Assembly (NCBI GenBank): GCA_002749535.1
Contig: MZZL01000391.1
Span: 201,061 to 265,060, forward strand
Direction: 5' to 3'
Source of the DNA: Apophysomyces variabilis
Taxonomy: Eukaryota > Mucoromycota > Mucoromycetes > Mucorales > Mucoraceae
DNA: 64,000 bases
Positions within the stretch are counted from its first letter, which is position 1, and each line of letters opens with the position of its first letter. Below the pieces are notes generated by a model. It did not search any database. It worked only from the letters and a program-made list of their open reading frames with translations, and was not told the origin of the DNA. A program made the position numbers and the translations under genes. This document shows positions 1 through 31,925 of this stretch, piece by piece.

Positions 1-1290
1 TAACATTAGCTGGGAGGTACTGTAGAATTGGTTCACTTCGTTAGTGTCCAAATCTTAGAGCCTGATTAATTCCTCTGAATGGCTTTGGGTGCTTTTTGCC
101 CAGGAGTTGCCCACTGTCTCTCCTGTGCTAAATGTTAGTTAGGGCCATAGTCAGCTGCATAATAGAATATCCTACCTCTCGAGACCATACTTCCTCAGAT
201 CAAAGCACTGATTAAAGAAATTGAAGTTTGTTTCATACTTGATAGTTGGTTCATGGTTATTGCTGCGTCAATGAACTGATGAAAGTGCTTGCAGTGCGTT
301 ACCGTTGATCATTACAGAGCTCCAGCCGAACGATGGAAGAGGGACCAGAGAAAACAGGCTTGGCGGAGTGATGCTTTGTTGATCATCATCTTGAATTCCT
401 GCCAAACCTATGAGAGCTGAAGCCGCCTCGGCTTTTCGATGCGTTAAACCTGAATCTTTGTAGTATAAAGCGGAGCACAGGAGTGTTTGAACCAGGCGAG
501 GCAGACAAATCAGTGGGACGACAAGGACCGTGTATGCGATGACAGAGCTCATCCAACACTATGTTCGCAGCATTCACTGCACGAATATATACTATACTTA
601 CTGATGTTATCATCCATTGCAGCTCATCTTCAACGATGGCTTCAACTACATAATCCCAACAGATTGCTTTCGTTGCGCTTTGGTAAGCTCTACTTAGGAC
701 GCAACGCATTTATAGAATTCATACTGGAACAAGCTGCGCGAATCGATGTATTCAACAAGCAGAAATGCTGTTATTGAAGTTATCGGCTATATGGTTCGTG
801 TAAGCGGTCTCTAACGTGGTGCATGCGGCTGTAAGAGCGTCGCTGTCTCCGATAAATCCTTATAGAGCATAAATAATTTCTGGATGCTGTTGGCTGAATG
901 TTTCCGAATATACACGCACGCTGGAGGAGATTTGTATTCTTGTTTGAGACACCTTTCCCAAGTATTAACTGGCAGGCACTGTACCAGAAGCTTTACTAGA
1001 ATATGTAAACCAGAACCTCTGTTTCAGCGTTGCTAATGATATATCTCTTTACAAAGGTCTGCGCTCGGCAAAGCACTTCTCGAACAAAGCTAGATAACTT
1101 ATTAATTTTGCGGTGGTCACGGTGTTCGGCACGGACAATCGAATCAAATGCGATACCCGTTGTATGCATTTCGCTACCAGAAGCGAAAGCTTCTCGAACC
1201 CTTTTCCTTGATAGAGGGAAGATGATTGTCGCACTTAACCGATCTTGCTGCTGTGTGTCCCGTCTGGCCATAAGAACTACACACCACTGA
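1..1290 (-). pseudogene. Fanzor nuclease remnant (N-terminal and middle part)
   Basis: Minus-strand peptide pieces align, in order, with the Fanzor protein of copies A and B. REVLCRAQTFVKRYIISN (near 1,050) matches REVIFRSQLLVNSYIIAN. TKAICWDYVVEAIVEDELQW matches AKAIERDYIYELLARGDLHW. LSASPGSNTPVLRFIL (near 440) matches LSVSPGSYIPVFVYIL, SLFSLVPLPSFGW matches RLFSLSPSPSTHW, and FDLRKYGLER (near 178-210) matches FDFHKLGFDR. Directly after the last piece an AG/GTAGG donor sits at the same place as an intron in the intact copies. Pieces lie in different frames and are split by stops, so this is not a working gene. The RuvC part would lie left of the window. Confidence 0.8.
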
Positions 1291-3071
1291 AGAAGTTGAT
1301 GTCTTTGTTTTTGCCGATCGCACTCGGTTCTTCCACGCTTCTTTTCCCTGTTAACTTCAATGTTGTCATCAATAGCATTTCTCTTTCCCGTTAGAAATTA
1401 TGCGATTAGGACTTTGATAACGATTAATCCGGCTTTTTATACCATATACCTTTTACAAGGGGCATTCGCGATTTCTCTTTGTCTTGTGTCCAAGGGCCTG
1501 GCAATCTCGACATATGGCTATGGATCGCCATGTGAGATAAATGAATCCCATATATCAACAACATACCTTGTTGTTTTTTCGGTTTCCTCCACGTTTCGCT
1601 AATATTTTCCTATTACTCTTTTGATAAACGTATTCAAAATAAAAGGGCAAAGGGGCAAACCAAGCGAAACTAAAATTGTTGACAAGAGAAATAACGAATC
1701 TGTTATTAAGAGTGCGTAAGAAAACTGAAAGAAATAGCTGCATAAGGGGGGTGGGAAGGGAAAAGCATCTAAGTTTTGACAACTCTCGGAATCCGATTAC
1801 GAGTCACTTCGATTATTGTTCAATTGACAACATCTTCATAAGAATGTCATTTAAGCCGTTGGAGAAAATGCGTAAACATCGTTTCTTCAAATAATATACA
1901 GGTACCAAATCTATGAATTATTTTGACTTATAATGGATTATTTCGTTTACAGCATAAATATAGATATGAGTAAAGGCATTCATTAAGTTGAATTTATTTG
2001 GCCTGAAATAGAATGACGATATGTATAGGAAACCTACCAATCCTACTAACTGCAAAATACATAGCACACTTATTCTTTATCCTTTCGCTATGTAAAAAGG
2101 TCAAGGAAAGAACAGTTACAGAACGCTGGATAACCTGAAACAATCCCATTACAAAGCGTAATTGGACTTCGGCACACGGCTCTTTAAATATATATGTTAC
2201 TCATTTCTGTTCCTCAAGTCTTTTTTTGATATGACAGGTTGCTTTGAGAGTACCCGCAAGTATTTATTACAGTTGACTGGGATATGGCGCACTTTATGAC
2301 CACTTTTACATACAATTTTTTGTTGGTTTGGTGCGCTCATTCCGTTGTTTCCATCACAAATAATACTGTATTGAGACCTTCTTTGATAAGTGAGCTGGAT
2401 CTCATTTCAAGAATGAAATGGAGTGATATATTTTGGGCTCACAATCTTCCATTTCTCTAATTGTCTTCTACCTCCTCCTTCTAAATGATTATGGGCATGA
2501 TTAGCATTTCTAGGTATGAATTGACTCCTCTAATTAGTTCAACACAACAGGCGGTTATGGATGACACCTTATGTAATGCAGAAGCAGATATAGTGAAATA
2601 CTCAAAAGCTTCGCTACTTTGTTCTTGAGGTAATCCCCAAGACATTGAGAACAAGGATCAGCATGTTGCGAACCATGGCTTCTTTTAAGTAGCATGTAAG
2701 TTCCCCCGTATGTGTTAATACTCAGTTTTTCAAGTAATTTACGCTGATAATTAACCATTGAATTTCTTTTGTTACTGTAAATGGTATGTTTGATAAGGTT
2801 TAGCCATTAATTATTCACTTTCTATACATCATACAGGTACTGGCATTTTGCATGAAATAAACAGAATCGCCTACATCAATTCTCTGCTAATTTTTCTTTA
2901 TCTTCGACTGTTTTAAAGCATAGAATTATTTACGATTTTCTTTGAATTAGTGGGATAACTATCCATGACTTGGTGATGTAGTTACGCTTGCACCTGAACT
3001 AGAACACGCTTCTGTTTCAAAATCTCTGCATGGAATATTTATGGTTTGACTAGATGATTGTGCAAGCTTTG

Positions 3072-3119
3072 CCTCTCCAAAACTTCAAGTGGGATTTTCA
3101 AAAACTTGTAAAAATATAG
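3072..3119 (-). repeat. Decayed terminal repeat of the remnant element
   Basis: The end of the remnant reads AAACTTCAAGTGGGATTTTC and runs on to ATATAG, followed by TA at 3,120-3,121. It resembles the outer end of copies A and B (a block like GGTGGAATCTTCAAAAAC and an end in CTAG/TA). It faces the left end of copy A head to head, with only about 26 bp between the two. Confidence 0.6.
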
Positions 3120-3147
3120 TATTTCCCAAAAATAATTTCGCAAACTA

Positions 3148-3195
3148 ATGGTTTATCAAAAGTTTTTGAAGATTCCACCCAAAATTGTTTTAAGT
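3148..3195 (+). repeat. Left terminal inverted repeat, copy A
   Basis: Starts TGGTTTATCAAAAGTTTTTG and continues with GAAGATTCCACCCAAAATTG. It matches the complement of the right end of the same element with few changes. A TA lies immediately outside, at 3,146-3,147. Confidence 0.75.
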
Positions 3196-5517
3196 TTCGA
3201 AAGAGTCAAATTTTGCAGAATCATCCAATCAAACCATGAAGATTCCATTAAGAGATTTTGAATCAAAATCGTGTGCTCGTTCAGGGGCAAGCGTAACTCC
3301 ATCAGGAAGACATAGATACCCATCTCACTAATTAGAAGATAATTCTAAACGACCCAGTGGTTAAAACAGTTGAGGATACTGGAAAATATCATCAAAAACA
3401 GTGTAGCCGATTGTGTTTGTGTAATGCAAAACGCCAGATGTCTGTATGATGTATGGAAAGACAGTAAGTAAAGGTTGAACCTTATCAAATATATCAATTA
3501 CAATAACAAAACAAAGTCAGTAGTAGTTTTCAACGTAAATAGTTTGAATTACTGAGTATTACGTCGAGAAATACTGTTTATTGACTACTAGATTAGGATC
3601 GTAGTAGAGGATAATAGGGCTACAATTCCAGGGTCAGAATGGATACAGCTGAAAAAGAGTTCTTTATTCTTCTAAGCGCAGACTAATTAAATAGCTGGCT
3701 GTCAATTCTACTTCTACTTTCTACTTTCGGTTAATTCTATAACACATCTCATGGAGGCTTACGTGATATTTAAAACAAGCCATGGTTCCCCAACCGTCTG
3801 ACCCTTGTTCTCAATATCTTGTAAATTCTCTCACGAACAAAATGATCACGGAACTTTTGTTTATTCTATCATATCAGCTTCCTCAATACGTGAGGTCTCA
3901 TCCATAGCTGCCCCGCTGTGTTCAACAAATGAGAGTAGCACTTCCTATTTAGAACCGCTATTTATGGCGTAATCAGTCATTACAACAATGTGACAGAAAA
4001 TTAGAAAATGAAAGACTTAAAAAATTCCACTACATATGATCATGTTTTTGTTTATAAAGTGGGATCCAGAATGCATATCAAGGAAAGTTTGATCGTCCTT
4101 TCTAATGGAAACAACGATGAATTCATATTTTAGTGGTAAAGTTAACAATGAGTGTATAAAGAATAGTATCAATGGCCCTTCTTTGAGCGGACGATGACCA
4201 CGAATTACACGTTGTACCTGTATCATCTCTAGATCAATTCATTGATCTCATACACACTGGTCCATCCTCGTAAATCAGGTAAATGAGACCTTACTGACAG
4301 TGGCCGTCAAATGATCGCTCCCTTCTCTTTGACAGTTAAGCAATTGTTGACGACACGAGGTATCACATACCGCACCTTCCTATTCTCTTTCTCTAGGTTT
4401 AATGATTATATAGATTTTATTTGAATCCATCCTCACCGCTTGTGTAATGGACGAAATTTGGCAAAGTTGTAGAATCCAGATCATAGGTTCGCGTGAACCG
4501 GGTGCGAAACAAAAAATTAAATGCAAAACCTAGTTCGGATCCAGCCAGGGAAGACACTTATTTTGACAAGCACAAATATTATACTCCCTCTCTTTCTTAC
4601 GTCCACTTTCCCTTGGTTTTTCCTTCAGTGGTTATCATCAATGACTGATTCCGTATTACACGGTTCAATAAACCTCCTATTGACCCTTTTTGTTTCCATC
4701 AGTTTATTAGTCTATTCACCTTTGCTCTTTGCATGATTTAAGGAAAACAGAAAAGCTTCAAATAGTAGAGGAGGCCACAAACAAAGGTTTGTCATAAAGG
4801 CTTATCTCCTTGACCTACAAGTGTCTTTGTATACATTTCAGAATTAGATATTGTAATTTTCTTTGACAGAAATATGAGTATCGTAGAATATAGCAGTATA
4901 CTGTACGATTTAAACATACGCGACATTTGGCACGACTCACCTGTCAAGTATGTGATATCGGCTTGTAACTTACAATTTCGGAAAACCAGTTAGGCCTACA
5001 CATCTTAAAAGTCCTGTTTATCGGGGCTTGTATGGTGTTGTTAACCTTGATTTAGTAGCGCAGCGTAGACCCTGAAGTTTAATTTGACATTCTTGTTTCA
5101 AGCATGATGCCTCTCTGTTTAATAAAAGTTGTCCAACCTACTAGCTTAAAAGATTTAATAGAATTTTCTTTTGTTAGAAAATGAAAAAATCAGTCTTAAA
5201 CTTTCAAAGGTCTTATTTATGAATGTCGAGGAATAGATCATCGAATGGCATAATGGAAAATGTTGTTTCCACGTAAAGACGACGAATATATAGTCTGGAT
5301 ACACCGTCATTAATACGTGAAGAGCAAAAGTTGTCCAATTACGCATGTGACGGTTTCGGATTACCGTCGTACCTTAAAAGAGACAACAGAAGTAGCAAGA
5401 ACATTCTATCACATATCTTTTGCACTGTCTTCTCTCATCATGCTTCAAGCCGTTTTTGAGTGGTGCTGCTCAAAACTGACAGCTTTGATTCCGCGTTCCG
5501 ATGAATGAAACTGGCAA
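3196..5517. other. Non-coding left arm of element copy A
   Basis: About 2.3 kb of AT-rich DNA between the left terminal repeat and the Fanzor gene. Short ORFs at 4,017-4,226 (minus), 4,521-4,736 and 5,317-5,508 (plus) reappear in copy B, but that only reflects the near identity of the two copies. None shows a recognisable domain. A short perfect hairpin (GGTTC-GCGT-GAACC) lies near 4,487-4,500. The arm could hold the promoter of the Fanzor gene or a decayed transposase gene; I cannot tell which. Confidence 0.5.
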
Positions 5518-8317
5518 GATATCGTCTGCCTTTGCAAAATCAGAAAATATTTCCAACAAGAAGCAGAACGATTAAAACAAGAAGAAGGTGAGTCTTACAG
5601 AGGGGACAAGTTACTCTTGATCAGTAGCCTTTATTTATCATTTCACACATATCATGTTCAGCCTTTTGCAAAGACTGCGGCCTGAGTAGCCATCCAAATA
5701 AACGATACAAAGCATGTCCATTGAACGCGCGCCATGGAAAGAAACCTGGTAAGCTAATACAGTTTTTAATCCGCAAGGTGTCTCTGATAACGTCTCTTCC
5801 TGTGTAAGTTGGACTAAAGAGAAAATTGAATGCTACAGAGGAGGCAGAGGTTTCAGAGGCAAAAAAAACGTGGAAGACAACTTAAAGCGGAGGAGACATC
5901 GAATCCAAATAAATTCAACAAACCATGCCAGAGCTGCGGCGGTATCGATCATTCGAAATCTTCTTCTAAGAATTGCAGGAAACCCTCCAAAACGAAAAAG
6001 AGCGTTATTGCGGAGAAACTAAATGACAATCATTACGAAACTTTTACTCGAAAGTTACCAGCTTCATCTGTGCTGCGTCCAGAATTTCGAGAGATTTTCC
6101 AGGAGAATAGCGTTCGATCATCGGCCTTCCTTAGGGAAGTTATCTTCCGTTCTCAGCTACTTGTCAACTCGTACATTATTGCGAACTGTGAGAGGCCGGT
6201 GCCTTCTTATAGTAATACTCAAAACTTCTGGTATTCGGCGTGCCCGCTTATCATGGGCATCAATATTAGCAACAACAACCCCAATTTTCCTCAAGACCTA
6301 CGTGATCACAGGAGAGCTTTCTTGGATAACCATCCAAATGCTCTTTATCCTGTTAGGAATATTTCGGGTTACAGTGATGCCCTTTTCGCGGCCTGTGTCA
6401 CGTTGGCCACCATGTATTCCAACAATGTCGCTGAAAACTTTGAAAGCCGCCTAAAGGTTTATATCTTGAGACGGCTTACAAAGCTAATGCCTGTAAAATG
6501 AAAGCATACATAGTCCATAGCTCTCAACTAACTACATATGTATAGGGCTTATCCCAAAAATATGCAAAAGCCATTGAAAGAGACTATATTTATGAACTCC
6601 TTGCTAGAGGTGATCTTCACTGGCCTTTCGAAGATGAACTTGCCGTCTCGGACTTTGATCAGGCTGTAGAAACTATTTGTGGCGAGTTTACGACACTAAT
6701 GCCCGAATGGCAAACAAATGCGGAAAAACTATCTGTTTCTCCAGGCAGCTACATTCCAGTATTTGTATATATACTCACCGAATACAATCAAGAACATGAA
6801 GAAGCCAAACAAAAACAAAACGCGCCAAAAACCCAAGAAGCCGAAAAGGCAAAAGATAGTTTTAAGGATCTACCGCGATTGTTTTCTCTGTCTCCATCTC
6901 CTTCAACTCATTGGAGATTTATCTGCGTTAATTCCAGGACACTTCAACAGTTAACGAACATCAGTCATCGAAAAGACTATGAGGACCAGCTTGCCCAGTT
7001 TTATCAAGTTTTTGATTTCCACAAGCTGGGATTTGACAGGTATTTACTATGATTATTTGTAGCTAAATTTCTCAAGAATATCCGTTAGTCTGGAGCAGTT
7101 TCAAAATTTCGGTAACAGTGGACGAATCGCTTTCAAAAATGTTATCTTCACCGATGGCTACGCGCTTGACTTCCAGTTCGCTTGCGCACGAAAGACAGAG
7201 TCAGTGGTCAGGGACGTCAGCCTTTCTGTTGAACACATTGACGGTAGCCATATCTATGACAATTTTGCACCATGTGCGATTGAGCCGGGCATCAATAAAG
7301 TCTTTACTGTTTCTTATGGCTGTGGATCAGGACCTCATGAAATAAGGAGATGCTCAACCAAAGAATACTATGTGTATACCGGTTCGCCGAATAGACAGAA
7401 TAAAATGGAGAAGGAAAAAAAGCAGCAAGGTATACAGGACATTGAAACCTCATTGCAGTCTGGAAAAACAGCGCATATCGAAGCCTACGACGGTTATCTA
7501 AGATCTATATTCGGCAATATGGGCGTGCTTTTCCAGTTTTATGGTCCGCATCGAGTTGAAGCTCGATTTCGAGGATATCAAGGCGTGCAAAGAGCAAGAG
7601 AGGAAATGGTCAATATATTAGGATTTGGTGATAAAAAGTACAACTGTAGCAGACGGAAACGGACGAGATCGAACAGAAAAGCCCGGAAAAGGAAGCGAAA
7701 AAATCGAAAGAAGCAGGTCAATAAAGATTCAGAAGTTGGCAATCCGTTACACCAAAGGTTAGTATTTATCTGCACGACAGTTCGTTACCTGCAGTAATTA
7801 AAAGCTAATTGATAGCCTTCCCCAGCCAAATACATCTGCCGAACGCAGTACGCTTAACGAAACCAAGCGTTTACCTCACTGGAGGCAAAAGAAATCCACT
7901 GCTGAAAGAAAGTGTCACTCATTGTATTTGGGGACGGGATATTCAACAATCGATGCAACTACAAAGGATATAGATAGGGAGTTGTGAATATCCTATGGAG
8001 ATCGTCGAAACGGAGGGAAAAGCGCGAAGGATTATTGGTGCTCACGATAGATGAATACCTTTCTTCGCAAGTAAGTTGGAGCGATTGATAGTAATATAAT
8101 GCTCACAAACGTCGTTTAGGTGTGCCATAGCTGCAGATGCAGGTCCCTGCAAAAGCTTACCACAGCCGATTGCGTTTCTCACCATAGCATCTTGGTATGC
8201 AAAAACTGTAAGATGTTATGGGACCGAGACGTCTTGGCCAGTAAAATTTATTCGTTATTGTGGAGTCAATTTGGTCTGGGCAAGGAAGAGCAAGAGAGTT
8301 TGCCCGGCCCTCATTAG
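5518..8317 (+). pseudogene. Fanzor RNA-guided nuclease gene, copy A (two frame breaks)
   Basis: Eukaryotic TnpB homologue. A small exon at 5,662-5,748 encodes a zinc knuckle (FCKDCGLSSHPN...ACPLN); how it joins the next exon is unresolved. The main exons read 5,830-6,492 (second knuckle, PCQSCGGIDHSKSSSKNC), 6,546-7,039, 7,089-7,757, 7,816-8,070 and 8,120-8,317. Motifs in order: FTDGY (middle domain), RuvC-I as AIEPGIN at 7,279-7,299 (the family has Asp where this has Glu), LTIDEYLSSQ at 8,041-8,070, zinc ribbon CHSC...CKNC, and WDRDVLASK near 8,219-8,245. Around 7,985-7,987 the frame ends in TGA and the next motif block (ILWRSSKRREK) resumes one base off; copy B shares this break. Copy A alone lacks one A in the run after LASK (8,242 region), so the conserved Asn and the rest of the C-terminus are lost. 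Likely non-functional as read. Confidence 0.85.
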
Positions 8318-8345
8318 ATCAATATACTGCCGTTACGAATACGGT

Positions 8346-8575
8346 TGATCCCTCTGGGGACTTTTAGGTTTTTACGGTAAGTGTATTAGTCAATTTTTCT
8401 AGTTAGGATTGTTTTGCTTACGTTTATCTTTCGCAGGTGGTCACACCTATGAGCTCACTATCACATTTAACAGAGGATACTCACCAACAATTACTGGCAA
8501 ATGGTTTATAACTTTTATCTCTAAATCTTTAAACAATTTTGGATGAAATCTTCAAAAACTTTTGAATAAACCTAG
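8346..8575 (+). ncRNA. Candidate guide-RNA (omega-RNA) region at the 3' end of copy A
   Basis: TnpB and Fanzor proteins use a guide RNA made from the 3' end of their gene and the adjoining transposon end. Here about 230 bp lie between the end of the Fanzor reading frame and the right terminus. They are conserved between A and B (roughly 94 percent by eye). A GTAAGT...GCAG pair inside also allows an ordinary 3' intron. No fold was computed, so this is a positional suggestion only. Confidence 0.25.
8528..8575 (-). repeat. Right terminal inverted repeat, copy A
   Basis: Ends GATGAAATCTTCAAAAAC and TTTTGAATAAACC, followed by TAG and TA at 8,576-8,577. Read on the minus strand it matches the left terminal repeat of the same copy. 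Confidence 0.75.
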
Positions 8576-9763
8576 TACGAGCATGAAAGTCTCAGTCCAT
8601 CGGAATTTTAAATTTACATATGCATCTTGCATTGGCTTGGCAGGGAGATGGGTATGGCATCGTCAGTTTTTTGACAGGTATGTGAACTTCGTCAATCCAA
8701 GCTTTTATTAAATGACAATTAATATGAATTTATTAGCGTCAATCCCAGTTTTCAAAATGTGCCAAGTGTAATTGCTACATGCGACTTTCATTTTTGGAGA
8801 TAAAATACCAGTAGTTCACTTTGGCTGTTAAGTAAATTCAATGCCAGTTATGAACTATATATAAGCGAATCAATGATTCAGCTATCATGGTCGCATAGTC
8901 AAATAGCGAGTAGAGAGACAGACGCTCTGTGATGTGGACTGCTTTGCTAGTTGCTCTAGAGTTCAGGACTTTCAGCCAGATGTGGTGATATTAACCAATA
9001 TTACAATCGAGGAATTGGATAAGGGAAACACTCTGCAGAACAAGTGGATCAGACAACATAATAATAAGTTCCCATTAGATGCTCTGGCACAAGTAAAACA
9101 TCCTTAAAATGTTCTTACGTTATTTGGGGAGAATAGGCAAAAGTAGTCCTTTCTAGCTTTCAGAGCCGTTGTCATTCTTTATTTTATGTTGTGTGATCCG
9201 CCTCTGTAAATGTTTGGTTCTCCACCAGAGGTTTCTTGCTTAGCGATGTCAATTACTGTTGTTGTTCGTATCAATATATAAGCATAGAAATATGATCATG
9301 ATTTTTGCATACCTGTATTTAACATGTACGATCTAAAGATGGAAGCAGACATCTTCTGGTATATCAATGCATGTGTCCTACGTAAAACTTTTACACATTG
9401 CCAGTTTATATTTAGTGATGTTAAAATAATTCGGAGTAAAATCATTAGTTGCTATTATACACTTTGATACTGCAAGATAAATTAGACTTCCTTATTTTAT
9501 TTGTATTGATGCACTTTCCTTCAGTAGCATATAAGGTCTTTTTTAACCTATCGAGAAATACATAACGATGACCAATGGATTGTGGAAACCTGACTACTAT
9601 TTTGGTCGGAGCCACAACGTTATCCCCTTTCAACGTAGGTACACCAATAGAAAAGTATCGTGCACCTCTTCCTGGTTACAGTAGACCATTTTTCTTTTTC
9701 AAGCCACACCTGCAAAAAGTTCCAAAAGGACGAACAGACTTTCAATTAGACCACATTGCCCAT
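8576..9763. other. Spacer between Fanzor copy A and PWP2
   Basis: About 1.2 kb of AT-rich sequence with only short ORFs in clashing frames. I see no gene, repeat or RNA structure. The last part must hold the PWP2 promoter. Confidence 0.6.
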
Positions 9764-12725
9764 ATGAAATCAGCTTTTCAGGTTTATAAGAAGCACATTT
9801 TCAACTGACAACCGCTAACATTTTGTCCCTATGTAGTTCTCTAATCTTTGTGGTACAGTTTACTCGGCCGGCAACCTCATTTTTACGCCCGATGGCAATT
9901 CGGTTCTAAGTCCAGTTGGGAATCGGGTTTCCGTCTTTGACTTGGTGAAGTAAGCTTTCACCTGATCTATATAACATCGTACTAACTGTTAAATGAAAAC
10001 CACAGCAACAAGTCATATACGTTACCAATAGAAATGAGAAAAAATATTGTTCGTATGGCTTTATCTCCTCGGGCAACGCTGTTGATCACCGTAGACGAAG
10101 GTTCAGGATAAACAGGATAAATACGGGGAGCATGGGAAAGCTTATTTTGATTTTGTAGATGGTCAGGCATTGTTAGTCAATTTTCCACGACGAGCTTTAC
10201 TCCATCGATTCCATTTTAAGCATAAAGTAAAAGCGATCGAATTTAGCCCGGATGGCAAACACATTGCTGTCACCCATGGAAAGCAACTTCAGATATGGAA
10301 AGCACCAGGATTCAACAGAGAGTTTTCCCCGTTCGTTTTGCGTCGAACTTTGACTGGTCACTATGACGATCTCCTTAGTATCACATGGAGTCCGGATTCC
10401 AAGTACGTTCATTTTCTCTGAAATACTGTTGGCTGAACGTTTGCAGGTTTATTTTGACTACATCGAAGGATATGACCGCTCATATTTATGCAATCAATCC
10501 TGACAAAGACTTCGTATCGCCTACGCTGACTGGTCACCGTAATGATGTGATGGGTGCATGGTTTTCTGATGATATGCAGAATGTAAGGATAGTTTATTCT
10601 TGGTATTTTCGCTTATTCCTTTAAAGATCTACACTATTAGCAAAGATGGTGCTCTGTTTCAATGGCGATATACCACGTTGGCGGCGGTAAAGGGTGAAGA
10701 CTCGGACGAGGAAATGGAGGTTGATGGAGGAAACACACGCGCGGACAAAGTACGCTGGCGTATTCAAGCCAAGCATTATTTCAATCAAACGGGCGCCAAG
10801 GTGAAATCATGTGCATTTTTCAGTCCAAGTAATTTGGTTGTGGTTGGCTTTTCCAACGGAATCTTTGGTTTATACGAGGTGCCTAGTTTCACAAACATTC
10901 ATACGTTAAGGTAATTGTTCATCTGGTTTCTAATGTATCATTGATCGTTATTGCAGTATTTCGCAGAAGACAATTGATACAGTTGCTATTAATCGGACCG
11001 GGGAATGGTTAGCATTTGGATCCTCAAAGCTTGGCCAACTCTTGGTCTGGGAATGGCAATCAGAAACCTATGTTCTTAAGCAACAGGGCCATTTCTACGA
11101 TATGAATGCGGTATCGTATTCAGCAGACGGTCAGACATTGGCGACGGGTGGTGATGATGGCAAAGTGAAAGTATGGAATTCAGCGTCTGGTTTCTGCTTC
11201 GTCACTTTTAGTGACCACAAGAGTGGAGTAACCGCGGTTGAATTTGCGAAACAAGGACAGGTGCTATTTTCAGCGAGTCTTGATGGAACAGTTCGTGCTT
11301 TTGATTTAGTGCGCTATCGAAACTTTAGGACATTTACAAGCCCAAATCCTGTTCAATTTTCGTCGTTAGCCGTTGATCCCAGTGGTGAGATTATCTGCGC
11401 CGGAACTATTGACACGTTTGAGATCTATGTATGGAGTGTACAAACCGGGAAGTTGCTTGATATTTTAGCTGGACATGAAGGACCTGTAAGCTCTCTTGCG
11501 TTTTCCCCAACCGCGATGCTATTGCTCAGTGGCAGCTGGGATCGTACAGCAAAAGTTTGGGATGCGTTCGGACGTAACAAAGTTACTGAGACCCTTCAGC
11601 ATCAATCCGATGTACTTGCTGTGGCGTTCCGTCCAGATGGCAAACAGGTTGCAGCATCGACTTTAGATGGTCAGATTTCGTTTTGGGATGTACAACTTGC
11701 GAAACAAACATCTGTCATTGAAGGTCGTCAAGATATATCAGGAGGGCGCAAGGCCAACGACCGCACTACAGCCGAAAACTCGTCCTCTGGAAAATGTTTT
11801 ACCTCTCTTTGTTATACTGCTGATGGATCCAGTATCATCGGTGGCGGCAGCAGCATGTACATTTGCATTTACGATATTGAAACCAGCGTTCTTATGAAGA
11901 AGTTCCAAATTTCCCAAAATACCTCACTGGACGGAACCCAAGAATTCTTGAACTCCAAACACATGACAGAATTCGGAAGCAAAGAATTCATGGAAGCTGA
12001 TGAAGAATCTGATCTTGAAGATCGATTGGATAACACGTTGCCTGGTACTCAGTCTGGTGATCTGTCCGTAAGACGTACACGACCAGAAGCTAGATCAAAA
12101 GCAGTTCGTTTTTCTCCCACCGGACGCAGCTGGGCAGCAGCAACGACGGACGGATTGCTAATCTACACGTTGGATGATGCTATTTTATTCGATCCTTTTG
12201 ATCTAGAAATCGATATTACGCCGGAAACAGTTATGGAAACTTTGGAAGAAGCTGAGTATCTCAAAGCCCTGTGCATGGCGTTCAGGTTGAATGAGAAGAA
12301 AGTGACGCATGCTGTCTTTGAACGTATTCCCGTTGAATCAATCCCGTTAGTAGCCCGTGGACTTCCTGAAAAATATTTGGACAAGTTGCTACAGTTCGTC
12401 GGCACACAAATGGAAGTTACACCACACATTGAGTTCCATCTCCTATGGGTAACAAGCGTCATGACCGCACACGGAAGGTACCTGAAAGAGCATCGTGGAG
12501 AGTTTCAGGCCATATTCCGAGCACTACACAAAGGTGTCAATCGTATCCGGGACGATATCGGAAATCTGTAAGTTAGAAGTGAAAAGAAAATGGTTGATTC
12601 AGTTACTAATCAATCTCCTTCCATCACCTTCTTGTAGATGTGATACAAATAAATACACGCTCAAATACATCCTAAACCAACAAGCACTAGGTCACCGTCG
12701 AGGCGAAGATGTGAACATGGCATAA
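9764..12725 (+). CDS. PWP2: Periodic tryptophan protein 2 (UTP1), U3 snoRNP/SSU processome
   Basis: WD40-repeat scaffold of the small-subunit processome, acting in the nucleolus on 18S pre-rRNA. Eight exons join in frame to about 862 residues (yeast and human proteins are near 920): 9,764-9,781, 9,837-9,949, 10,006-10,100, 10,159-10,402, 10,447-10,582, 10,627-10,910, 10,957-12,567 and 12,638-12,725. The start MKSAFQFSNLCGTVY matches the family N-terminus, and the tiny first exon fixes it. Repeats include GHYDDLLSITWSPDS, GHRNDVMGAWF, GHFYDMNAVSYSADG and GHEGPVSSLAFSP; the acidic linker GEDSDEEMEVDGG sits between the two propellers. The C-terminal helical domain follows residue ~690. A damaged extra copy of part of this gene lies 2 kb downstream. 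Confidence 0.95.
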
Positions 12726-14486: not shown

Positions 14487-14536
14487 AAACTCATTACATT
14501 TTCGTTAATTTTTCCATAATTATCTCTTCATAAATG

Positions 14537-15084
14537 GTGATCTGGTTTTTAGTACTATTATTGCTCGTTATTGTAGTATTTCTCGGAAGACAATTGATAC
14601 AGTTCCTATTAATCGGACTGGAGAATGGTTAGCATTTTGATCCTCAAAACTCGGCCAACTCTTGGAGTAACCGCGGTTGAATTTGCGAAACAAGGACAAG
14701 TGCTATTTTCAGCGAGTCTTGATGGAACAATTCGGCTTTCGATTTAGTGCGCTATCAAAACTTTAGGACATTTACAAGCCCAAATCCTGTTCAATTTTCG
14801 TCGTTAGCCGTTGATCCCAGTGGTGAGATTATCTGCGCCGGAACTATTGACACGTTTGAGATCTATGTATGGAGTGTACAAACCGGGAAGTTGCTTGATA
14901 TTTTAGCTGGACATGAAGGACCTGTAAGCTCTCTTGCGTTTTCCCCAACCGCGATGCTATTGCTCAGTGGCAGCTGGGATCGTACAGCAAAAGTTTGGGA
15001 TGCGTTCGGACGTAACAAAGTTACTGAGACCCTTCAGCATCAATCCGATGTACTTGCTGTGGCGTTCCGTCCAGATGGCAAACG
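14537..15084 (+). pseudogene. Partial duplicated PWP2 fragment
   Basis: Near-identical to PWP2 positions about 10,915-11,648, starting inside an intron and stopping abruptly after GATGGCAAAC. The intron end is kept, so the copy was made from DNA, not mRNA. A segment of about 181 bp (PWP2 11,046-11,226) is deleted at 14,665, with a short TGG overlap at the junction. The copy also has a TGA where PWP2 reads Gly (LAFGS becomes LAF-stop) and a one-base loss near 14,735. It cannot encode a protein. Confidence 0.9.
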
Positions 15085-23146: not shown

Positions 23147-23762
23147 TATGGCCGCTAATAAACTGAAGCAAAAGTGACTCCTTCTTTTTTCTTTCTCGGT
23201 GCTTACTTCGGCAAGTGTAGGACGTGGAAAAGTGTTTCCTATCCCACAATGCAGTAACAGTAGACTGCATTAAGAGTACACAAGCGACGTAATCTGTGTC
23301 ATGGACAAGTAAAACAGAACTGGAAATAGTTATATACAGACCTTTCAGCAGGTATGGTAAATAAACTTTCTTTAGTGAACCCGTTTTTATACGAAAACGA
23401 TTGGTTATGGCATAATGGGATCAAGTTCAATGCCATTGTCTATTCGGAACCATGTATTTTTTCAATTTCCGCCGGATCCTTCGGACCTGCCTGTAATGTC
23501 CGGCGGTGCAGGAGGGGTGCCCTCAGAAAGGGGGAGAGATCATGGTCATGGCTTGCAACACTGAGGGGAACGGGGGAAATGCGTGCGGGCGGTGTCTGGT
23601 ATTTGGTGAGTCAGTGACCTTGTATTAGTTTCTTTCTTCCCTATATATTGAACAAGTGAGTATGCATAAAAGTCGATGGATGGATGGATGGATGGTGCGC
23701 GAAATGAACGTGAACAAGGAGATTAATCATTTATATATCTTTTTTCTTGTGCCTCGATTAGT
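23147..23762. other. Spacer with TGGA microsatellite upstream of RPS2
   Basis: About 600 bp. A (TGGA)n/(GATG)n tract lies at 23,674-23,695. The region must hold the promoter of the ribosomal protein gene. No gene seen. Confidence 0.6.
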
Positions 23763-24827
23763 ATGGCTGACTCTGCTCCGGCCGGTACTCGTGGTAAGAG
23801 CCACACCATGCGACAGCCTGCCCACACTTTGCCATGCATAACTAAACCTTTCTCGACACCTTGTCATTAGGACGTGGTGGTTTTGGACGTGGTCGCGGTC
23901 GTGGCGGTCGTGGACGTGGTGCCCGTCGTGGACGTGAAGAAAAGAACGAATGGTAATGACAACTGACACCGAGACCGTCAATATACGAAGAAGCGAAAAG
24001 AGAGAGAAAGACAAAAGAGAAGAGAGGGAGGGGGCTTATTGCGTTGTTTGCAAGCTATTGTCGACATCGAACCACGAGCATGTCGGTTGCAACCGAGAAG
24101 TGAAAGAGGAACAGGGGGATGATAGAGAGAGAATTATCTTTTGCTTATCGTATATTTTCCTTTGCATAGGGTCCCCATGACCAAGCTCGGCCGTCTTGTC
24201 AAGGCTGGCAAGATCAAGTCTATCGAGGAGATCTACTTGTTCTCGTTACCCATCAAGGAGTACCAAATCGTTGACTATTTCTTGCCTAAGCTGAAGGATG
24301 AGGTCATGAAGATCATGCCTGTCCAGAAGCAGACCCGTGCTGGTCAGCGTACCCGTTTCAAGGCTTTCGTTGTCATTGGTGACTACGATGGTCACGTTGG
24401 TTTGGGTGTCAAGTGCTCCAAGGAAGTGGCCACTGCCATCCGTGGTGCCATCATCTTGGCCAAGCTTGCTATTATCCCCGTTCGTCGCGGTTACTGGGGT
24501 TCTGCTCTTGGTGATCCCCACACTGTGCCTACCAAGGTCACCGGTAAGTGTGGTTCCACTCTCTGCCGTCTTGTGCCTGCTCCCCGTGGTACTGGCCTTG
24601 TCGCTGCTCCTACTTCCAAGAAGGTCCTTCAGCTCGCTGGTATTGCTGATTGTTACACCTCCTCGCGTGGTTGTACCCGTACCTTGGGTAACTTTGTCAA
24701 GGCTACCTTCGCTGCCATTGGTAACACCTATGGTTTCTTGACCCCCGATCTCTGGACCGAGACTGAGTTCACCAAGGCTCCTTACCAAGAATTCACTGAC
24801 TTCCTCTCCCAGAAGCAGAGAAAGTAG
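23763..24827 (+). CDS. RPS2: 40S ribosomal protein S2 (uS5)
   Basis: Component of the small ribosomal subunit that shapes the mRNA entry and decoding area. Three exons (23,763-23,793, 23,871-23,952, 24,170-24,827) give 256 residues, the usual eukaryotic length. After a short start ([11 protein letters not shown]) comes the Gly/Arg-rich stretch [16 protein letters not shown], a target of arginine methylation in this family, then the S5 core ([20 protein letters not shown]) and C-terminal fold ([14 protein letters not shown]). Codon use is strongly biased to C-ending codons, as expected for a highly expressed gene. The second intron is about 217 nt, much longer than most introns here. Confidence 0.97.
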
Positions 24828-25549
24828 ACAATTCAACTGTATTAACCATATATAAACTTGTCGACTTTCGAATTCCGTCCATATGTTTCTTAGTATTATC
24901 GTGCTTTATGCAGCGCAATGTATGCCATTTTGCGTATAACAAAATATAAGTTTGCTAGATTTCTCTGGTTTTGCTATTTGCAAAAATAATTACACGATTT
25001 TCCTACAGGACAACCACCATCGTGCGCTTTTCGCTTTTGCTTTGGTCAGAGGAAGACATTGTAAGCTAATGAAAAAGCATACTATATCAAATACATGCTG
25101 CTGTGAGACATTTATCTGTTCTCCAAGAACAGTATCTGACTCCCATTTTGCTAATAATTGGACACAGAATGCTTGTTTTGAAATCTCTTTTGACATAGTC
25201 AATCCACATTCCACAATGACAAGTATATCTAGATGCATGATCATACGTTGAGCCTTGCTAACGGCTCGTTGAAATGTTGCAAAATCTACATGGCTCACTG
25301 TCGTTGCAGGTCGTCGCAGGTCGTCGCATACCTCTCTCATCTTGTTCCATCAAAGTGCAATTGCTCGTGAGCAAATTGCTAGATAGACAAACATCGGCCA
25401 TCGTAATTCTATCTCAAGCAAGCTTTTTCTTTCTTTTGCTAACTTTATCTCAAATCGAAGTAGAGATATCCCTAGGAATCTGAACAATACCATGGGAAGA
25501 AACGGTGTCATTTTCGTTTAAAGCAAGTTTTTTTATTTTCACGACGCAT
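24828..25549. other. Spacer between convergent ribosomal protein genes
   Basis: About 720 bp between the 3' ends of RPS2 and RPL12. A short direct repeat (GGTCGTCGCA twice) lies at about 25,308-25,327. I see no gene or structured RNA. Confidence 0.6.
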
Positions 25550-26260
25550 TTATTTCTCCTAGAAATCGAAAACAAAAAACATGTCAGATATTTTGCTGTA
25601 ACCTTTCTCAAGCTCAGACTTACGGGAATCTCAACTTCACCAGCATCAATAGCATCGCAAAGATCCTTGGGGCTCTGACCGTCGACAGTGCAACCAACAG
25701 AGTTGGCAGTACCAAGAATCTCCTTGACAGTACCCTTGAGTTCACGAGCATAAGACTTGAAGCGCATGGTACGAGCGATCTCAATAACATCATCAAGAGA
25801 GATGTTGCCACTGTGCTTGACTAAACGAAACGTTTCAGCATGGTTTTTTTTCTTCGTCCGTTTCCTTAATTTAAGTACTTACTGTTCTTCTCCTTCTTGC
25901 GATCTCTTGGGGGCTCCTTCAAAGCCTTGATGACCAAAGAAGAGGCCGAAGGAACAACGGAAACTTGGGCCTGACGGTTCTGGATGGTCAACTGGACAGT
26001 CACGCGAAGACCCTTCCAGTCCTTGGTACCCTTGGCGATGTCTTCACCGACCTTCTTGGGGGAAAGACCCAAGGGACCAATCTTAGGTGCAAGAGCACTG
26101 GATGCACCCACTTCGCCACCTGTTATAATTGTACATCAAATTGGGGTATTTTTAGTTTGGGAATGCAGACGATACAATTTCAGTTTGGAAAGGACGAATC
26201 TTTACCAGTGGCGCGAAGGTAGATGATCTTCACCTCATTAGGGTCAAACTTGGGAGGCAT
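25550..26260 (-). CDS. RPL12: 60S ribosomal protein L12 (uL11)
   Basis: Builds the stalk base of the large subunit, where translation GTPases dock. Four exons (26,260-26,206, 26,119-25,883, 25,820-25,624, 25,558-25,550) give 165 residues, exactly the usual length. It starts [20 protein letters not shown], continues [20 protein letters not shown] (the conserved loop that binds 28S rRNA) and [15 protein letters not shown], and ends EVEIPEK. The last exon holds only two codons and the stop. The terminus of Fanzor transposon B lies about 240 bp upstream of the ATG, so the transposon now forms the outer part of the promoter region. Confidence 0.97.
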
Positions 26261-26499
26261 CTGATTTCATTATTTCAACGATGAATATACAAATGAGTCC
26301 TCTTGTCTCTTGTTTCTTCGAATGGATGGATGCAGATACACATACCTTTGGATTTGAAAAGGAGGGAACACGCGATGCTCGTTGGTCGATCCACAAAATG
26401 CGGTTCGGGATTGCTGAAGGCCGGCGGAAATTCAAATACCAAATACTCAGCCCCACATTTCTGACGACTGCTGGGCAAAAGGGAACATCATGCAAAATA

Positions 26500-26550
26500 C
26501 TGGTTTATTCAAAAGTCTTTGAAGATTTCATCCAAAATTGTTTGAAGATT
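26500..26550 (+). repeat. Right terminal inverted repeat, copy B
   Basis: CTGGTTTATTCAAAAG then TTTGAAGATTTCATCC and AAAATTGTTTGAAG. It is the inverted partner of 31,876-31,925 and matches the right end of copy A. Confidence 0.75.
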
Positions 26551-26706
26551 TAGAGATAAAAGTTATAAAGCATTTGCCAGTAATTGTTGGTGAGTATCCT
26601 CTGTTAAACGTGATAGTGAGCTTACCAATGTGATCACCTGCAAAAGATAAACGTTAGCAAAACAATCCTAACTAGAAAAATTGACTAATACACTTACCGT
26701 AAAAAC

Positions 26707-29350
26707 CTAAAAGTCCCCAGAGGGATCAACCGTATTCGTAACGGCAGTATATTGATCTAATGAGGGCCGGGCAAACTCTCTTGCTCTTCCTTGCCCAGAC
26801 CAAATTGACTCCACAATAACGAATAAATTTTTACTGGCCAAGACGTCTCGGTCCCATAACATCTTACAGTTTTTGCATACCAAGATGCTATGGTGAGAAA
26901 CGCAATCGGCTGTGGTAAGCTTTTGCAGGGACCTGCATCTGCAGCTATGGCACACCTAAACGACGTTTGTGAGCATTACATTACTATCAATCGCTCCAAC
27001 TTACTTGCGAAGAAAGGTATTCATCTATCGTGAGCACCAATAATTCTTCGCGCTTTTCCCTCCGTTTCGACGATCTCCATAGGATATTCACAACTCCCTA
27101 TCGGTGTCCTTTGTAGTTGCATCGATTGTTGAACATCCCGTCCCCAAATACAATGAGTGACACTTTCTTTCAGCAGTGGATTTCTTTTGCCTCCAGTGAG
27201 GTAAACGCTTGGTTTCGTTAAGCGTACTGCGTTCGGCAGATGTATTTGGCTGGGGAAGGCTATCAATTAGCTTTTAATTACTGCAGGTAACGAACTGTCG
27301 TGCAGATAAATACTAACCTTGGTGTAACGGATTGCCAACTTCTGAATCTTTATTGACCTGCTTCTTTCGATTTTTTCGCTTCCTTTTCCGGGCTTTTCTG
27401 TTCGATCTCGTCCGTTTCCGTCTGCTACAGTTGTACTTTTTATTACCAAATCCTAGTATATTGATCATTTCCTCTCTTGCTCTTTGCACGCCTTGATATC
27501 CTCGAAATCGAGCTTCAGCTCGATGCGGACCATAAAACTGGAAAAGCACGCCCATATTGCCGAATATAGATCTTAGATAACCGTCGTAGGCTTCGATATG
27601 CGCTGTTTTTCCAGACTCCAATGAGGTTTCAATGTCCTGTATACCTTGCTGCTTTTTTTCCTTCTCCATTTTATTCTGTCTATTCGGTGAACCGGTATAC
27701 ACATAGTATTCTTTGGTTGAGCATCTCCTTATTTCATGAGGTCCTGATCCACAGCCATAAGAAACAGTAACTTTATTGATGCCCGGCTCAATCGCACATG
27801 GTGCAAAATTGTCATAGATATGGCTACCGTCAATGTGTTCAACAGAAAGGCTGACGTCCCTGACCACTGACTCTGTCTTTCGTGCGCAAGCGAACTGGAA
27901 GTCAAGCGCGTAGCCATCGGTGAAGATAACATTTTTGAAAGCGATTCGTCCACTGTTACCGAAATTTTGAAGCTGCTCCAGACTAACGGATATTCTTGAG
28001 AAATTTAGCTACAAATAATCATAGTATATACCTGTCAAATCCCAGCTTGTGGAAATCAAAAACTTGATAAAACTGGGCAAGCTGGTCCTCATAGTCTTTT
28101 CGATGACTGATGTTCGTTAACTGTTGAAGTGTCCTGGAATTAACGCAGATAAATCTCCAATGAGTTGAAGGAGACGGAGACAGAGAAAACAATCGCGGTA
28201 GATCCTTAAAACTATCTTTTGCCTTTTCGGCTTCTTGGGTTTTTGGCGCGTTTTGTTTTTGTTTGGCTTTTTCATGTTCTTGATTGTATTCGGTGAGTAT
28301 ATATACAAATACTGGAATGTAGCTGCCTGGAGAAACGGATAGTTTTTCCGCATTTGTTTGCCATTCGGGCATTAGTGTCGTAAACTCGCCACAAATAGTT
28401 TCTACAGCCTGATCAAAGTCCGAGACGGCAAGTTCATCTCCGAAAGGCCAGTGAAGATCACCTCTAGCAAGGAGTTCATAAATATAGTCTCTTTCAATGG
28501 CTTTTGCATATTTTTGGGATAAGCCCTATACATATGTAGTTAGTTGAGAGCTATGGACTATGTATGCTTTCATTTTACAGGCATTAGCTTTGTAAGCCGT
28601 CTCAAGATATAAACCTTTAGGCGGCTTTCAAAGTTTTCAGCGACATTGTTGGAATACATGGTGGCCAACGTGACACAGGCCGCGAAAAGGGCATCACTGT
28701 AACCCGAAATATTCCTAACAGGATAAAGAGCATTTGGATGGTTATCCAAGAAAGCTCTCCTGTGATCACGTAGGTCTTGAGGAAAATTGGGGTTGTTGTT
28801 GCTAATATTGATGCCCATGATAAGCGGGCACGCCGAATACCAGAAGTTTTGAGTATTACTATAAGAAGGCACCGGCCTCTCACAGTTCGCAATAATGTAC
28901 GAGTTGACAAGTAGCTGAGAACGGAAGATAACTTCCCTAAGGAAGGCCGATGATCGAACGCTATTCTCCTGGAAAATCTCTCGAAATTCTGGACGCAGCA
29001 CAGATGAAGCTGGTAACTTTCGAGTAAAAGTTTCGTAATGATTGTCATTTAGTTTCTCCGCAATAACGCTCTTTTTCGTTTTGGAGGGTTTCCTGCAATT
29101 CTTAGAAGAAGATTTCGAATGATCGATACCGCCGCAGCTCTGGCATGGTTTGTTGAATTTATTTGGATTCGATGTCTCCTCCGCTTTAAGTTGTCTTCCA
29201 CGTTTTTTTTGCCTCTGAAACCTCTGCCTCCTCTGTAGCATTCAATTTTCTCTTTAGTCCAACTTACACAGGAAGAGACGTTATCAGAGACACCTTGCGG
29301 ATTAAAAACTGTATTAGCTTACCAGGTTTCTTTCCATGGCGCGCGTTCAA
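26707..29350 (-). pseudogene. Fanzor RNA-guided nuclease gene, copy B (one shared frame break, C-terminus intact)
   Basis: Same exon plan as copy A in reverse. From N to C: zinc knuckle PCQSCGGIDHSKSSSKNC (about 29,160-29,100), middle region, RuvC-I AIEPGIN (about 27,796-27,776), basic linker (RRKRTRSNRKARKRKRK), LTIDEYLSSQ, zinc ribbon CHSC...CKNC, and WDRDVLASKNLFVIVESIW. Unlike copy A it keeps the Asn after LASK and the family's C-terminal pattern (IWSGQGRAREFARP), ending NTVDPSGDF. It lacks one Phe codon after INKV that copy A has. The TGA at 27,090-27,088 interrupts the frame before ILWRSSKRREK exactly as in copy A. A 35-nt intron could in principle bypass it, but that is shorter than other introns here and would remove conserved sequence. 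Of the two, this copy is closest to a functional protein. Confidence 0.82.
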
Positions 29351-31875
29351 TGGACATGCTTTGTATCGTTTATTTGGATGGCTACTCAGGCCGCAGTCTT
29401 TGCAAAAGGCTGAACATGATATGTGTGAAATGATAAATAAAGGCTACTGATCAAGAGTAACTTGTCCCCTCTGTAAGACTCACCTTCTTCTTGTTTTAAT
29501 CGTTCTGCTTCTTGTTGGAAATATTTTCTGATTTTGCAAAGGCAGACGATATCTTGCCAGTTTCATTCATCGGAACGCGGAATCAAAGCTGTCAGTTTTG
29601 AGCAGCACCACTCAAAAACGGCTTGAAGCATGATGAGAGAAGACAGTGCAAAAGATATGTGATAGAATGTTCTTGCTACTTCTGTTGTCTCTTTTAAGGT
29701 ACGACGGTAATCCGAAACCGTCACATGCGTAATTGGACAACTTTTGCTCTTCACGTATTAATGACGGTGTATCCAGACTATATATTCGTCGTCTTTACGT
29801 GGAAACAACATTTTCCATTATGCCATTCGATGATCTATTCCTCGACATTCATAAATAAGACCTTTGAAAGTTTAAGACTGATTTTTTCATTTTCTAACAA
29901 AAGAAAATTCTATTAAATCTTTTAAGCTAGTAGGTTGGACAACTTTTATTAAACAGAGAGGCATCATGCTTGAAACAAGAATGTCAAATTAAACTTCAGG
30001 GTCTACGCTGCGCTACTAAATCAAGGTTAACAACACCATACAAGCCCCGATAAACAGGACTTTTAAGATGTGTAGGCCTAACTGGTTTTCCGAAATTGTA
30101 AGTTACAAGCCGATATCACATACTTGACAGGTGAGTCGTGCCAAATGTCGCGTATGTTTAAATCGTACAGTATACTGCTATATTCTACGATACTCATATT
30201 TCTGTCAAAGAAAATTACAATATCTAATTCTGAAATGTATACAAAGACACTTGTAGGTCAAGGAGATAAGCCTTTATGACAAACCTTTGTTTGTGGCCTC
30301 CTCTACTATTTGAAGCTTTTCTGTTTTCCTTAAATCATGCAAAGAGCAAAGGTGAATAGACTAATAAACTGATGGAAACAAAAAGGGTCAATAGGAGGTT
30401 TATTGAACCGTGTAATACGGAATCAGTCATTGATGATAACCACTGAAGGAAAAACCAAGGGAAAGTGGACGTAAGAAAGAGAGGGAGTATAATATTTGTG
30501 CTTGTCAAAATAAGTGTCTTCCCTGGCTGGATCCGAACTAGGTTTTGCATTTAATTTTTTGTTTCGCACCCGGTTCACGCGAACCTATGATCTGGATTCT
30601 ACAACTTTGCCAAATTTCGTCCATTACACAAGCGGTGAGGATGGATTCAAATAAAATCTATATAATCATTAAACCTAGAGAAAGAGAATAGGAAGGTGCG
30701 GTATGTGATACCTCGTGTCGTCAACAATTGCTTAACTGTCAAAGAGAAGGGAGCGATCATTTGACGGCCACTGTCAGTAAGGTCTCATTTACCTGATTTA
30801 CGAGGATGGACCAGTGTGTATGAGATCAATGAATTGATCTAGAGATGATACAGGTACAACGTGTAATTCGTGGTCATCGTCCGCTCAAAGAAGGGCCATT
30901 GATACTATTCTTTATACACTCATTGTTAACTTTACCACTAAAATATGAATTCATCGTTGTTTCCATTAGAAAGGACGATCAAACTTTCCTTGATATGCAT
31001 TCTGGATCCCACTTTATAAACAAAAACATGATCATTTGTAGTGGAATTTTTTAAGTCTTTCATTTTCTAATTTTCTGTCACATTGTTGTAATGACTGATT
31101 ACGCCATAAATAGCGGTTCTAAATAGGAAGTGCTACTCTCATTTGTTGAACACAGCGGGGCAGCTATGGATGAGACCTCACGTATTGAGGAAGCTGATAT
31201 GATAGAATAAACAAAAGTTCCGTGATCATTTTGTTCGTGAGAGAATTTACAAGATATTGAGAACAAGGGTCAGACGGTTGGGGAACCATGGCTTGTTTTA
31301 AATAATCACGTAAGCCTCCATGAGATGTGTTATAGAATTAACCGAAAGTAGAAAGTAGAAGTAGAATTGACAGCCAGCTATTTAATTAGTCTGCGCTTAG
31401 AAGAATAAAGAACTCTTTTTCAGCTGTATCCATTCTGACCCTGGAATTGTAGCCCTATTATCCTCTACTACGATCCTAATCTAGTAGTCAATAAACAGTA
31501 TTTCTCGACGTAATACTCAGTAATTCAAACTATTTACGTTGAAAACTACTACTGACTTTGTTTTGTTATTGTAATTGATATATTTGGTAAGGTTCAACCT
31601 TTACTTACTGTCTTTCCATACATCATACAGACATCTGGCGTTTTGCATTACACAAACACCATCGGCTACACTGTTTTTGGTGATATTTTCCAGTATCCTC
31701 AACTGTTTTAATCACTGGGTCGTTTAGAATTACCTTCTAATTAGTAGGATGGTTATCCATGACTTTGGGATGTAGTTGCACTTACCTCTGAACGAGCACA
31801 CGCTTTTGATTCAAAATCTCGTATTGCGAATTTTCATTGTTTGTTTAGATGATTCTTCAAAATTTGACTCTTCGA
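29351..31875. other. Non-coding left arm of element copy B
   Basis: Mirror image of 3,196-5,730, with the small upstream zinc-knuckle exon (CKDCGLSSHPN) at about 29,420-29,330. No transposase or other recognisable gene. Confidence 0.5.
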
Positions 31876-31925
31876 TACTTCAAACAATTTTGGGTGGAAT
31901 CTTCAAAAACTTTTGAAAAAACCAA
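31876..31925 (-). repeat. Left terminal inverted repeat, copy B
   Basis: Read on the minus strand it starts TTGGTTTTTTCAAAAG and continues TTTTTGAAGATTCCACCC. Matches the left terminal repeat of copy A. Confidence 0.75.

Follow-up and report, generated by a model that had tools for sequence, protein, structure and literature searches.

A Fanzor1 transposon family with Tc1/mariner ends in Apophysomyces variabilis, whose left-flank motif and duplication scars suggest homing by Fanzor

Fanzor1 genes within Tc1/mariner ends were described in the PGv-1, PUl-1 and PUl-4 elements, with TA duplication and with a transposase in some copies only (Bao and Jurka 2013, PMC3627910). In Spizellomyces punctatus, the Spu-1 Fanzor1 elements and their ghost loci, which keep the right end, have inverted repeats and, ahead of the left repeat, a CA dinucleotide that is conserved and fits the motif CATA measured for SpuFz1 (Saito 2023, PMC10432273). 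The family reported here was found through two copies, A and B, in a 64,000-nucleotide stretch of Apophysomyces variabilis DNA (the window; part of contig C76 in a 38.7-Mb genome of 126 contigs), and is a new version of these known Fanzor1-mariner elements. The protein encoded at 32,430-34,235 of the window had 96% identity to an Apophysomyces ossiformis protein. It shared with PGv-1, PUl-1 and PUl-4 the features listed above, and differed from them, as described, in its Mucorales host, in bearing several Fanzor cores on one set of arms, and in a composite with an internal third repeat. It resembled Spu-1 in its inverted repeats and in a left dinucleotide fitting a motif, and differed in the motif itself (RC-TA here, CA-TA there) and in the presence of transposase composites and Fanzor-free mariners, which served as a control; the passages on Spu-1 place no transposase between the repeats and mention no long-duplication scars, which were present here (PMC10432273).

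Other described systems were less close. The Mucorales Fanzor families in the relevant part of Bao and Jurka (2013) were associated with MuDR, partial Crypton and Harbinger elements (PMC3627910). Among them, MCi-2 of Mucor circinelloides was similar to the present family in its description, having 11-12 bp duplications, a conserved 3' part, a fuzzy 5' end and variable 5' modules before one Fanzor. Compared by description, MCi-2 differed in being without recognisable inverted repeats, in a partial Crypton transposase in one subfamily, and in the pattern ATAATTNNNN(N). The logic proposed for TnpB of IS200/IS605, by which the guide keeps a record of the insertion site, copies without the element are cut and it is copied back (PMC11870625), is like the one considered here, but it belongs to peel-and-paste transposition, whereas the present case concerns a DDE cut-and-paste mariner in a eukaryote and is read from sequence.

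The best explanation of the results, and a fairly probable one, is that the family consists of non-autonomous Tc1/mariner elements with a Fanzor1 gene, which would be copied back by Fanzor homing. A DD34E transposase would excise the elements and paste them at TA. The Fanzor RNA would derive from the right end, with the right flank as its 3' part, and Fanzor would recognise RCTA plus the right-flank sequence in the emptied sister site and cut downstream of TA. The element-bearing sister copy would then template repair and the element would be restored (homing by cut-and-copy, as in bacterial TnpB). Restoration would be confined to insertions with a left RCTA, so that surviving copies would be enriched for RCTA. 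Where copying from the right halted inside the left repeat, the end would be joined by microhomology to the motif-side stub, and such a failed copy-back would leave a duplication of TA+N6-11 and an overwritten left end.

The family had at least 47 distinct left flanks in the genome. Its ends had the form CTGGTTT...AACCAG between flanking TA dinucleotides, with CTGGTTTTTTCAAAAG... after the left TA (first base after TA variable) and ...CTTTTGAATAAACCAG before the right TA; the terminal inverted repeats expected of Tc1/mariner elements were therefore present, and the left and right repeats were unequal (TTTTTTC..CCACCC vs. TTTATTC..TTCATCC). A terminal repeat of about 45 bp, claimed in the original prediction, was borne out, a 28-base core occurring 91 times in the genome (up to 3 mismatches) and its reversed-pattern control not at all. 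As DNA queries, the left kilobase matched at least 57 stretches in the genome (40 of 136 candidates scored) and the right end at least 48 (40 of 118 candidates scored). The sequences read comprised 20 loci of 8.5-9.6 kb, 4 further elements and, for many more, short pieces at the ends. In 6 of the 21 right ends in the alignment (L012, L013, L015, L017, L022 and L026; types F, X and Y, defined below), a tandem duplication covered about 23 bp of the right repeat. The right flank of L016 and the left end of L027 adjoined a short repeat with AAATTTCCCCTTCGGAGTTGC, of which 3 further copies occurred in the genome.

The interior was modular, with three diverged Fanzor cores on the same arms. Type F (A, B and others) had a 2.3-kb left arm and a multi-exon Fanzor. 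Type X shared with F the first approximately 1.65 kb (about 88% identity, including the arm of A) and the last approximately 210 bases, and its core was another Fanzor with about 50% DNA identity (11 loci matching at least 2,100 of 2,401 bases). A third type (L119) shared its ends at about 80% and had a further diverged Fanzor, and L120 and L121 were shortened copies with Fanzor remnants. Type Y was a composite, in which a complete mariner unit, made up of left repeat, transposase and right repeat, was joined to an F-type body and right end (approximately 7.07 kb in L012). In L014 (C41:89,200-98,800), an element of type X and a body of type F stood head to head via one shared terminal repeat; the junction occupied the place of the mariner unit in the composite, as if modules recombined through the repeats.

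The type Y unit encoded a protein of 466 aa with a DDE_3 domain (Pfam, E = 4e-21) and D-34-E spacing. Transposases within the same ends were of 466-473 aa and of the Tc1/mariner type (DD34E), and 466-aa open frames with the transposase were found at C94, C86, C89 and C95. The best named relatives in a database search were Mucorales proteins with a Tc1-like domain. Two solo elements (C93 and C79) carried the transposase unit of Y at 93-95% with terminal repeats on both sides, and no Fanzor-element sequence was found in the approximately 175 bases beyond their right ends. The transposase was absent from A and B themselves, whose placement in Tc1/mariner goes through these relatives with the same ends. 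The DD34E transposase shared by composites and solos is likely the mobilising enzyme of the Fanzor elements, which is the natural reading of the shared ends. At least 171 DDE_3 matches occurred genome-wide (150 of 411 candidates scored), some in open frames of more than 400 aa, which indicates a large Tc1/mariner population.

TA was present on both sides in 32 of 32 two-ended copies, a count that excludes copies in which TA had decayed (the left one in C78 and C89:612, the right one in L123 and L131). Because no empty site was found for the two copies tried (L016 and L012; neither junction was spanned by one unbroken match, and both right flanks are repeats), TA duplication is deduced from both flanks of each copy. 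The original prediction had proposed Tc1/mariner-type mobilisation in trans, and this was upheld as far as sequence can tell by the DD34E transposase between the same terminal repeats elsewhere in the genome. Its statement that the elements carry only a Fanzor gene held for A and B and failed for relatives with the same ends, which carry the transposase; composites held transposase and Fanzor within one set of ends, so that an internal transposase did not go with a Fanzor unlinked to those ends. As a whole, its observation was confirmed in part and its interpretation supported; it had not noted the one-sided RCTA flank, the long-duplication scars or the dead state of A and B.

The base before the left TA was C in 41 of 47 copies, against 18.2% of 4,074 TA sites in the window (binomial p = 1.5e-24). 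By type, left C occurred in 15 of 17 F, 8 of 8 Y, 3 of 6 X and 15 of 16 other copies, these 47 being the copies with intact TA. Position -2 was a purine in 43 of 47 (A 30, G 13) and position -3 was random; RC preceded TA at 9.8% of the window's TA sites. All 47 left-flank strings differed from each other. The mirrored base on the right was C in 8 of 55 (Fisher p = 5e-14 vs. left). Shortened copies with little Fanzor gene (C94-170, C99) also followed the left-C rule. A target motif beside the left end, as homing would require, is thus suggested by the flank statistics.

The left count left out the internal junction of L014; copies with a lost or decayed left end (L027, C94b, C124, C100, C35, C30:441 and C77:83.9 kb); C78 and C89:612, with decayed TA and both preceded by C; C77:96 kb (a partial mariner; C); C84s2, which repeats the flank of C84; and the masked C93Y and C87b. 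L018 was taken whole and compared with A alone. The right count of 55 comprised 47 plus eight later ends; L123 and L131, which lack TA, were omitted, as were L019, L020 and C95d, whose right ends are lost. Right ends without a located left end were L066, L099, L100, L111, L116-L118 and L126-L132.

If Fanzor were passive cargo with no role in the persistence of copies, R-C-TA would reflect which targets the transposase prefers when it acts on two ends that differ. The difference between left and right repeats makes an asymmetric transposition complex conceivable, and A and B persist with dead Fanzors. However, TA is palindromic, and a site preference due to the transposase alone would be expected to look the same on both sides. 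IS630 elements prefer the palindromic target CTAG; a preference of this kind was tried here and rejected, since it would put G on the right, and this was found in 8 of 55. With the same left repeat, composites on the mariner's own left end had C in 8 of 8, whereas mariners read without Fanzor (C93, C79 and C84) had T in 3 of 3 (p = 0.006), and C and G at those two right ends that could be read. In Spizellomyces, the dinucleotide left of the elements is likewise conserved and fits the measured Fanzor motif in the passages describing it (PMC10432273). Passive cargo is held to be improbable.

That R-C could be part of the element end instead of the target would agree with a C nearly fixed on the left, but not with a mixed position -2 and a random position -3. 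Moreover, the scars described below, with a truncated left repeat, still showed AC (three) or CC (one) before the duplicated target, so that these bases belong to target DNA. This reading is very improbable.

From the flank statistics, together with the CA left of the Spizellomyces elements and the measured CATA, in which TA would be the start of the element, the target motif of the family's Fanzor is predicted to be RCTA. For comparison, PpFz1 is reported to require ATN (PMC11423790). Firm type-specific motifs were considered and rejected: position -3 differed between F and the others (p = 0.0009), but Y, which has an F-type Fanzor, departed from F, and several comparisons were made. Type X differed from F plus Y in the left flank at p = 0.04, which is only suggestive.

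Comparison of the left junction with the right flank in the 32 two-ended copies (of 37 rows; C35, C94b and L027, with lost left ends, and two solos were dropped) gave 2-4 shared bases in 28 copies and 8-13 in four (12 bp in L012, 12 in L022, 13 in C94-170 and 8 in C99, where the match continued imperfectly). The maximum shared by 992 mismatched pairs of left junction and right flank was 7. These four scars were duplications of TA plus the first presumed guide bases, and the first bases of the left repeat were replaced by target sequence. In three of the four, the switch point fell within a T-rich stretch that target and repeat share; in C99 it was T-rich and less clear. In C94-170 the target itself held TTTTCAAAAG, as did the repeat. 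The right end was complete in all four (one base changed in C94-170). The right flank of L012 was the end of another dispersed repeat, which started with CAGTATTTTGCA and had TA before 3 of 4 other copies read (L135-L138), and is perhaps another mariner-like element.

The main rival for the scars is template switching via the empty sister at a transposase break, one of several transposition or repair accidents without Fanzor (along with one-ended transposition with a long stagger) that could have given 8-13 bp duplications. The joins in a T-rich stretch are what template switching or end joining would give, and the rarity of scars (4 of 32 copies) fits accidents as well. After a transposase break, however, the left stub would end at TA. 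For guide-side bases to appear on the left, a break further right in the empty site is thus needed, which a transposase break alone cannot provide; a second break or a third template would be required. A cut in that position is what would be expected of Fanzor. All four duplications also started exactly at TA with the right end complete, the polarity expected for Fanzor, and the 11-12 bp duplications and fuzzy 5' ends described for the MCi-2 Fanzor family (PMC3627910) likewise speak against accidents, which are considered a possible but rather doubtful origin.

Several observations weigh against homing. Half of the type X left flanks had G (3 of 6). The other exceptions to left C were L028 (T), C119 (A) and C62 (T), although the Fanzor of L028 was decayed and the ends of C119 were damaged. 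The Fanzor-free control consisted of three mariners only, of which C84 had no readable right end; no usable terminal repeats were found at ten unrelated mariner loci checked as a wider control. Two of the eight composites were incompletely read (right end of C81; C95e, with two ends taken as one element), the interior was read in only 3 of the 16 other copies (C95-752, C94-170 and C99), and right-flank bases were taken by eye before the count. The scars were few and one was imperfect, the right flank of L012 belonged to a repeat, and the joins lay 8-13 bases after the start of TA, whereas SpuFz1 and GtFz1 are reported to cut 14-21 bases beyond the motif, so that trimming must be assumed. The search for an empty site in two copies, given above, counts here too, as does the folding of the right ends: their consensus fold had -4 kcal/mol, 5 of its 20 pairs showed compensation, and among nine folded singly one had z = -3.2, one -2.0 and seven -1.4 to +0.5.

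The last approximately 150 bases were conserved across types whose coding parts were not (21 right ends aligned), in keeping with an RNA scaffold common to them. The left arm was conserved to a similar degree, and with the weak folding this keeps the guide RNA a candidate. An Rfam search over window positions 1-32,500 gave no match.

The protein is Fanzor1 by homology to SpuFz1 and GtFz1 and by its DPG motif. The read-through protein matched SpuFz1 (8gkh, E = 3.6e-4) and GtFz1 (9cer, E = 4e-4) in the PDB, weakly yet as the only matches at E ≤ 1; a PDB search with a single exon gave no match. In a large protein database, the read-through Fanzor had four matches, in Apophysomyces ossiformis (46% over 67%), Rhizopus microsporus (two) and Parasitella. 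Pfam PF07282 was found at E = 7e-4 with 20.1 bits, below the 26.3-bit cut-off. The C-terminal features of Fanzor1 ([TS][TS]xx, C4 zinc finger and RD) were present as VCHSC...LTTADCVSHHSILVCKNCKMLWDRD in exon 7 of L012. At RuvC-I, 14 copies were scanned and the motif was found in 12, being DPG in 9, EPG in A and B and HPG in L028. Both A and B had a frameshift and a stop in exon 6, and A a frameshift in exon 7 in addition; given EPG and the exon 6 lesions, both are Fanzor pseudogenes that should be inactive. Among 13 copies checked over exons 3-7, only the type Y copy L013 had all five open.

Features of the window are given in Table 1. The limits originally predicted for A and B were exact, with TA on both sides (3,146-3,147 and 8,576-8,577 for A; 26,498-26,499 and 31,926-31,927 for B). 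The Fanzor exons were the only open frames of at least 150 aa inside them; in A the gene was delimited from exon 3 onward. The third copy, which had been placed at 1-3,119, was recognisable from 3,113 down to 963 only, and its right end was not matched in the comparison with L120.

Table 1. Features of the Fanzor transposon copies in the window (e, exon).
Feature	Position	Strand	Basis
Fanzor transposon copy A, type F	3148..8575	+	Repeat comparison, genome search, end reading
Left flank of A: ACTA, predicted Fanzor target motif (RC) and TA duplicate	3144..3147	+	Sequence; motif statistics, 47 copies
Left terminal inverted repeat of A (42 nt at 90% in repeat comparison)	3148..3197	+	
Left arm of A, without open frame of at least 150 aa	3148..5430	+	Open-frame scan
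Fanzor1 exons of A: e3 5,830-6,501; e4 6,546-7,052; e5 7,063-7,797; e6 ~7,814-8,070; e7 ~8,120-8,364	5830..8364	+	
Right arm of A, conserved, non-coding, with right terminal repeat; candidate guide-RNA (omega RNA) scaffold	8420..8575	+	Alignment of 21 right ends
Right flank of A: TA duplicate, then presumed guide sequence	8576..8597	+	Inferred from position
Fanzor transposon copy B, type F	26500..31925	-	Repeat comparison, genome search, end reading
Left flank of B: ACTA on minus strand	31926..31929	-	
Fanzor1 exons of B: e3 29,241-28,570; e4 28,525-28,019; e5 28,008-27,313; e6 ~27,261-27,005; e7 ~26,955-26,710	26710..29241	-	
Conserved right arm and right terminal repeat of B	26500..26656	-	Alignment of right ends
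Right flank of B: TA and presumed guide sequence	26478..26499	-	Inferred from position
Decayed sister-type copy, 77% identical to L120 (C94:170 kb)	963..3113	-	Sequence comparison

A and B were inverted copies approximately 18 kb apart, with arms of 3,535 nt at 100% and other arms at 95-99% in the self-comparison of the window. They differed by 1 base over 3,644-6,393 (counterpart approximately 28,680-31,430), vs. 28 of 249 in the first end bin and 12 of 183 in the last (7-11%), and their flanks were unlike each other. The simplest reading is that their similarity is probably due, at least partly, to gene conversion after separate insertions, which qualifies the several ages of insertion that had been proposed. 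The conversion tract may also have spread the EPG change. Elsewhere in the window, direct repeats (110, 72 and 300 nt; 90-99%) were found at 10,936-11,596 and 14,556-15,034, and part of a WD-repeat-like frame (545 aa, 10,934-12,571) was duplicated approximately 3.4-3.6 kb downstream.

The biological role of Fanzor was stated to be unknown in the 2023 paper that showed its nuclease activity, in the part of that paper concerned (PMC10432273), and no report of homing footprints of Fanzor in a eukaryote was found among the titles and abstract openings listed from the openly licensed literature. In the present genome, the same ends and the same transposase family serve elements with and without Fanzor, which amounts to a natural controlled experiment, and the main value of the family lies in the indirect evidence that it gives, together with a small control within the genome, for homing of Fanzor under RNA guidance. 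On balance it is probable that Fanzor in vivo in a eukaryote would be an RNA-guided homing nuclease for a mariner, which would filter insertions for RCTA, act in trans on shortened and composite copies, and leave a diagnostic TA+N6-11 scar at a failed left copy-back, with MCi-2 in Mucor as a second case. For the MCi-2 duplications, Bao and Jurka gave no explanation in the passage describing them (PMC3627910), and the scars found here offer a reading of them. With the left-flank motif and the scars, homing becomes a hypothesis that can be tested both in vitro (predicted motif RCTA) and across strains (empty sites and scars), and the approach of reading target motifs from insertion flanks could extend to other Fanzor families.

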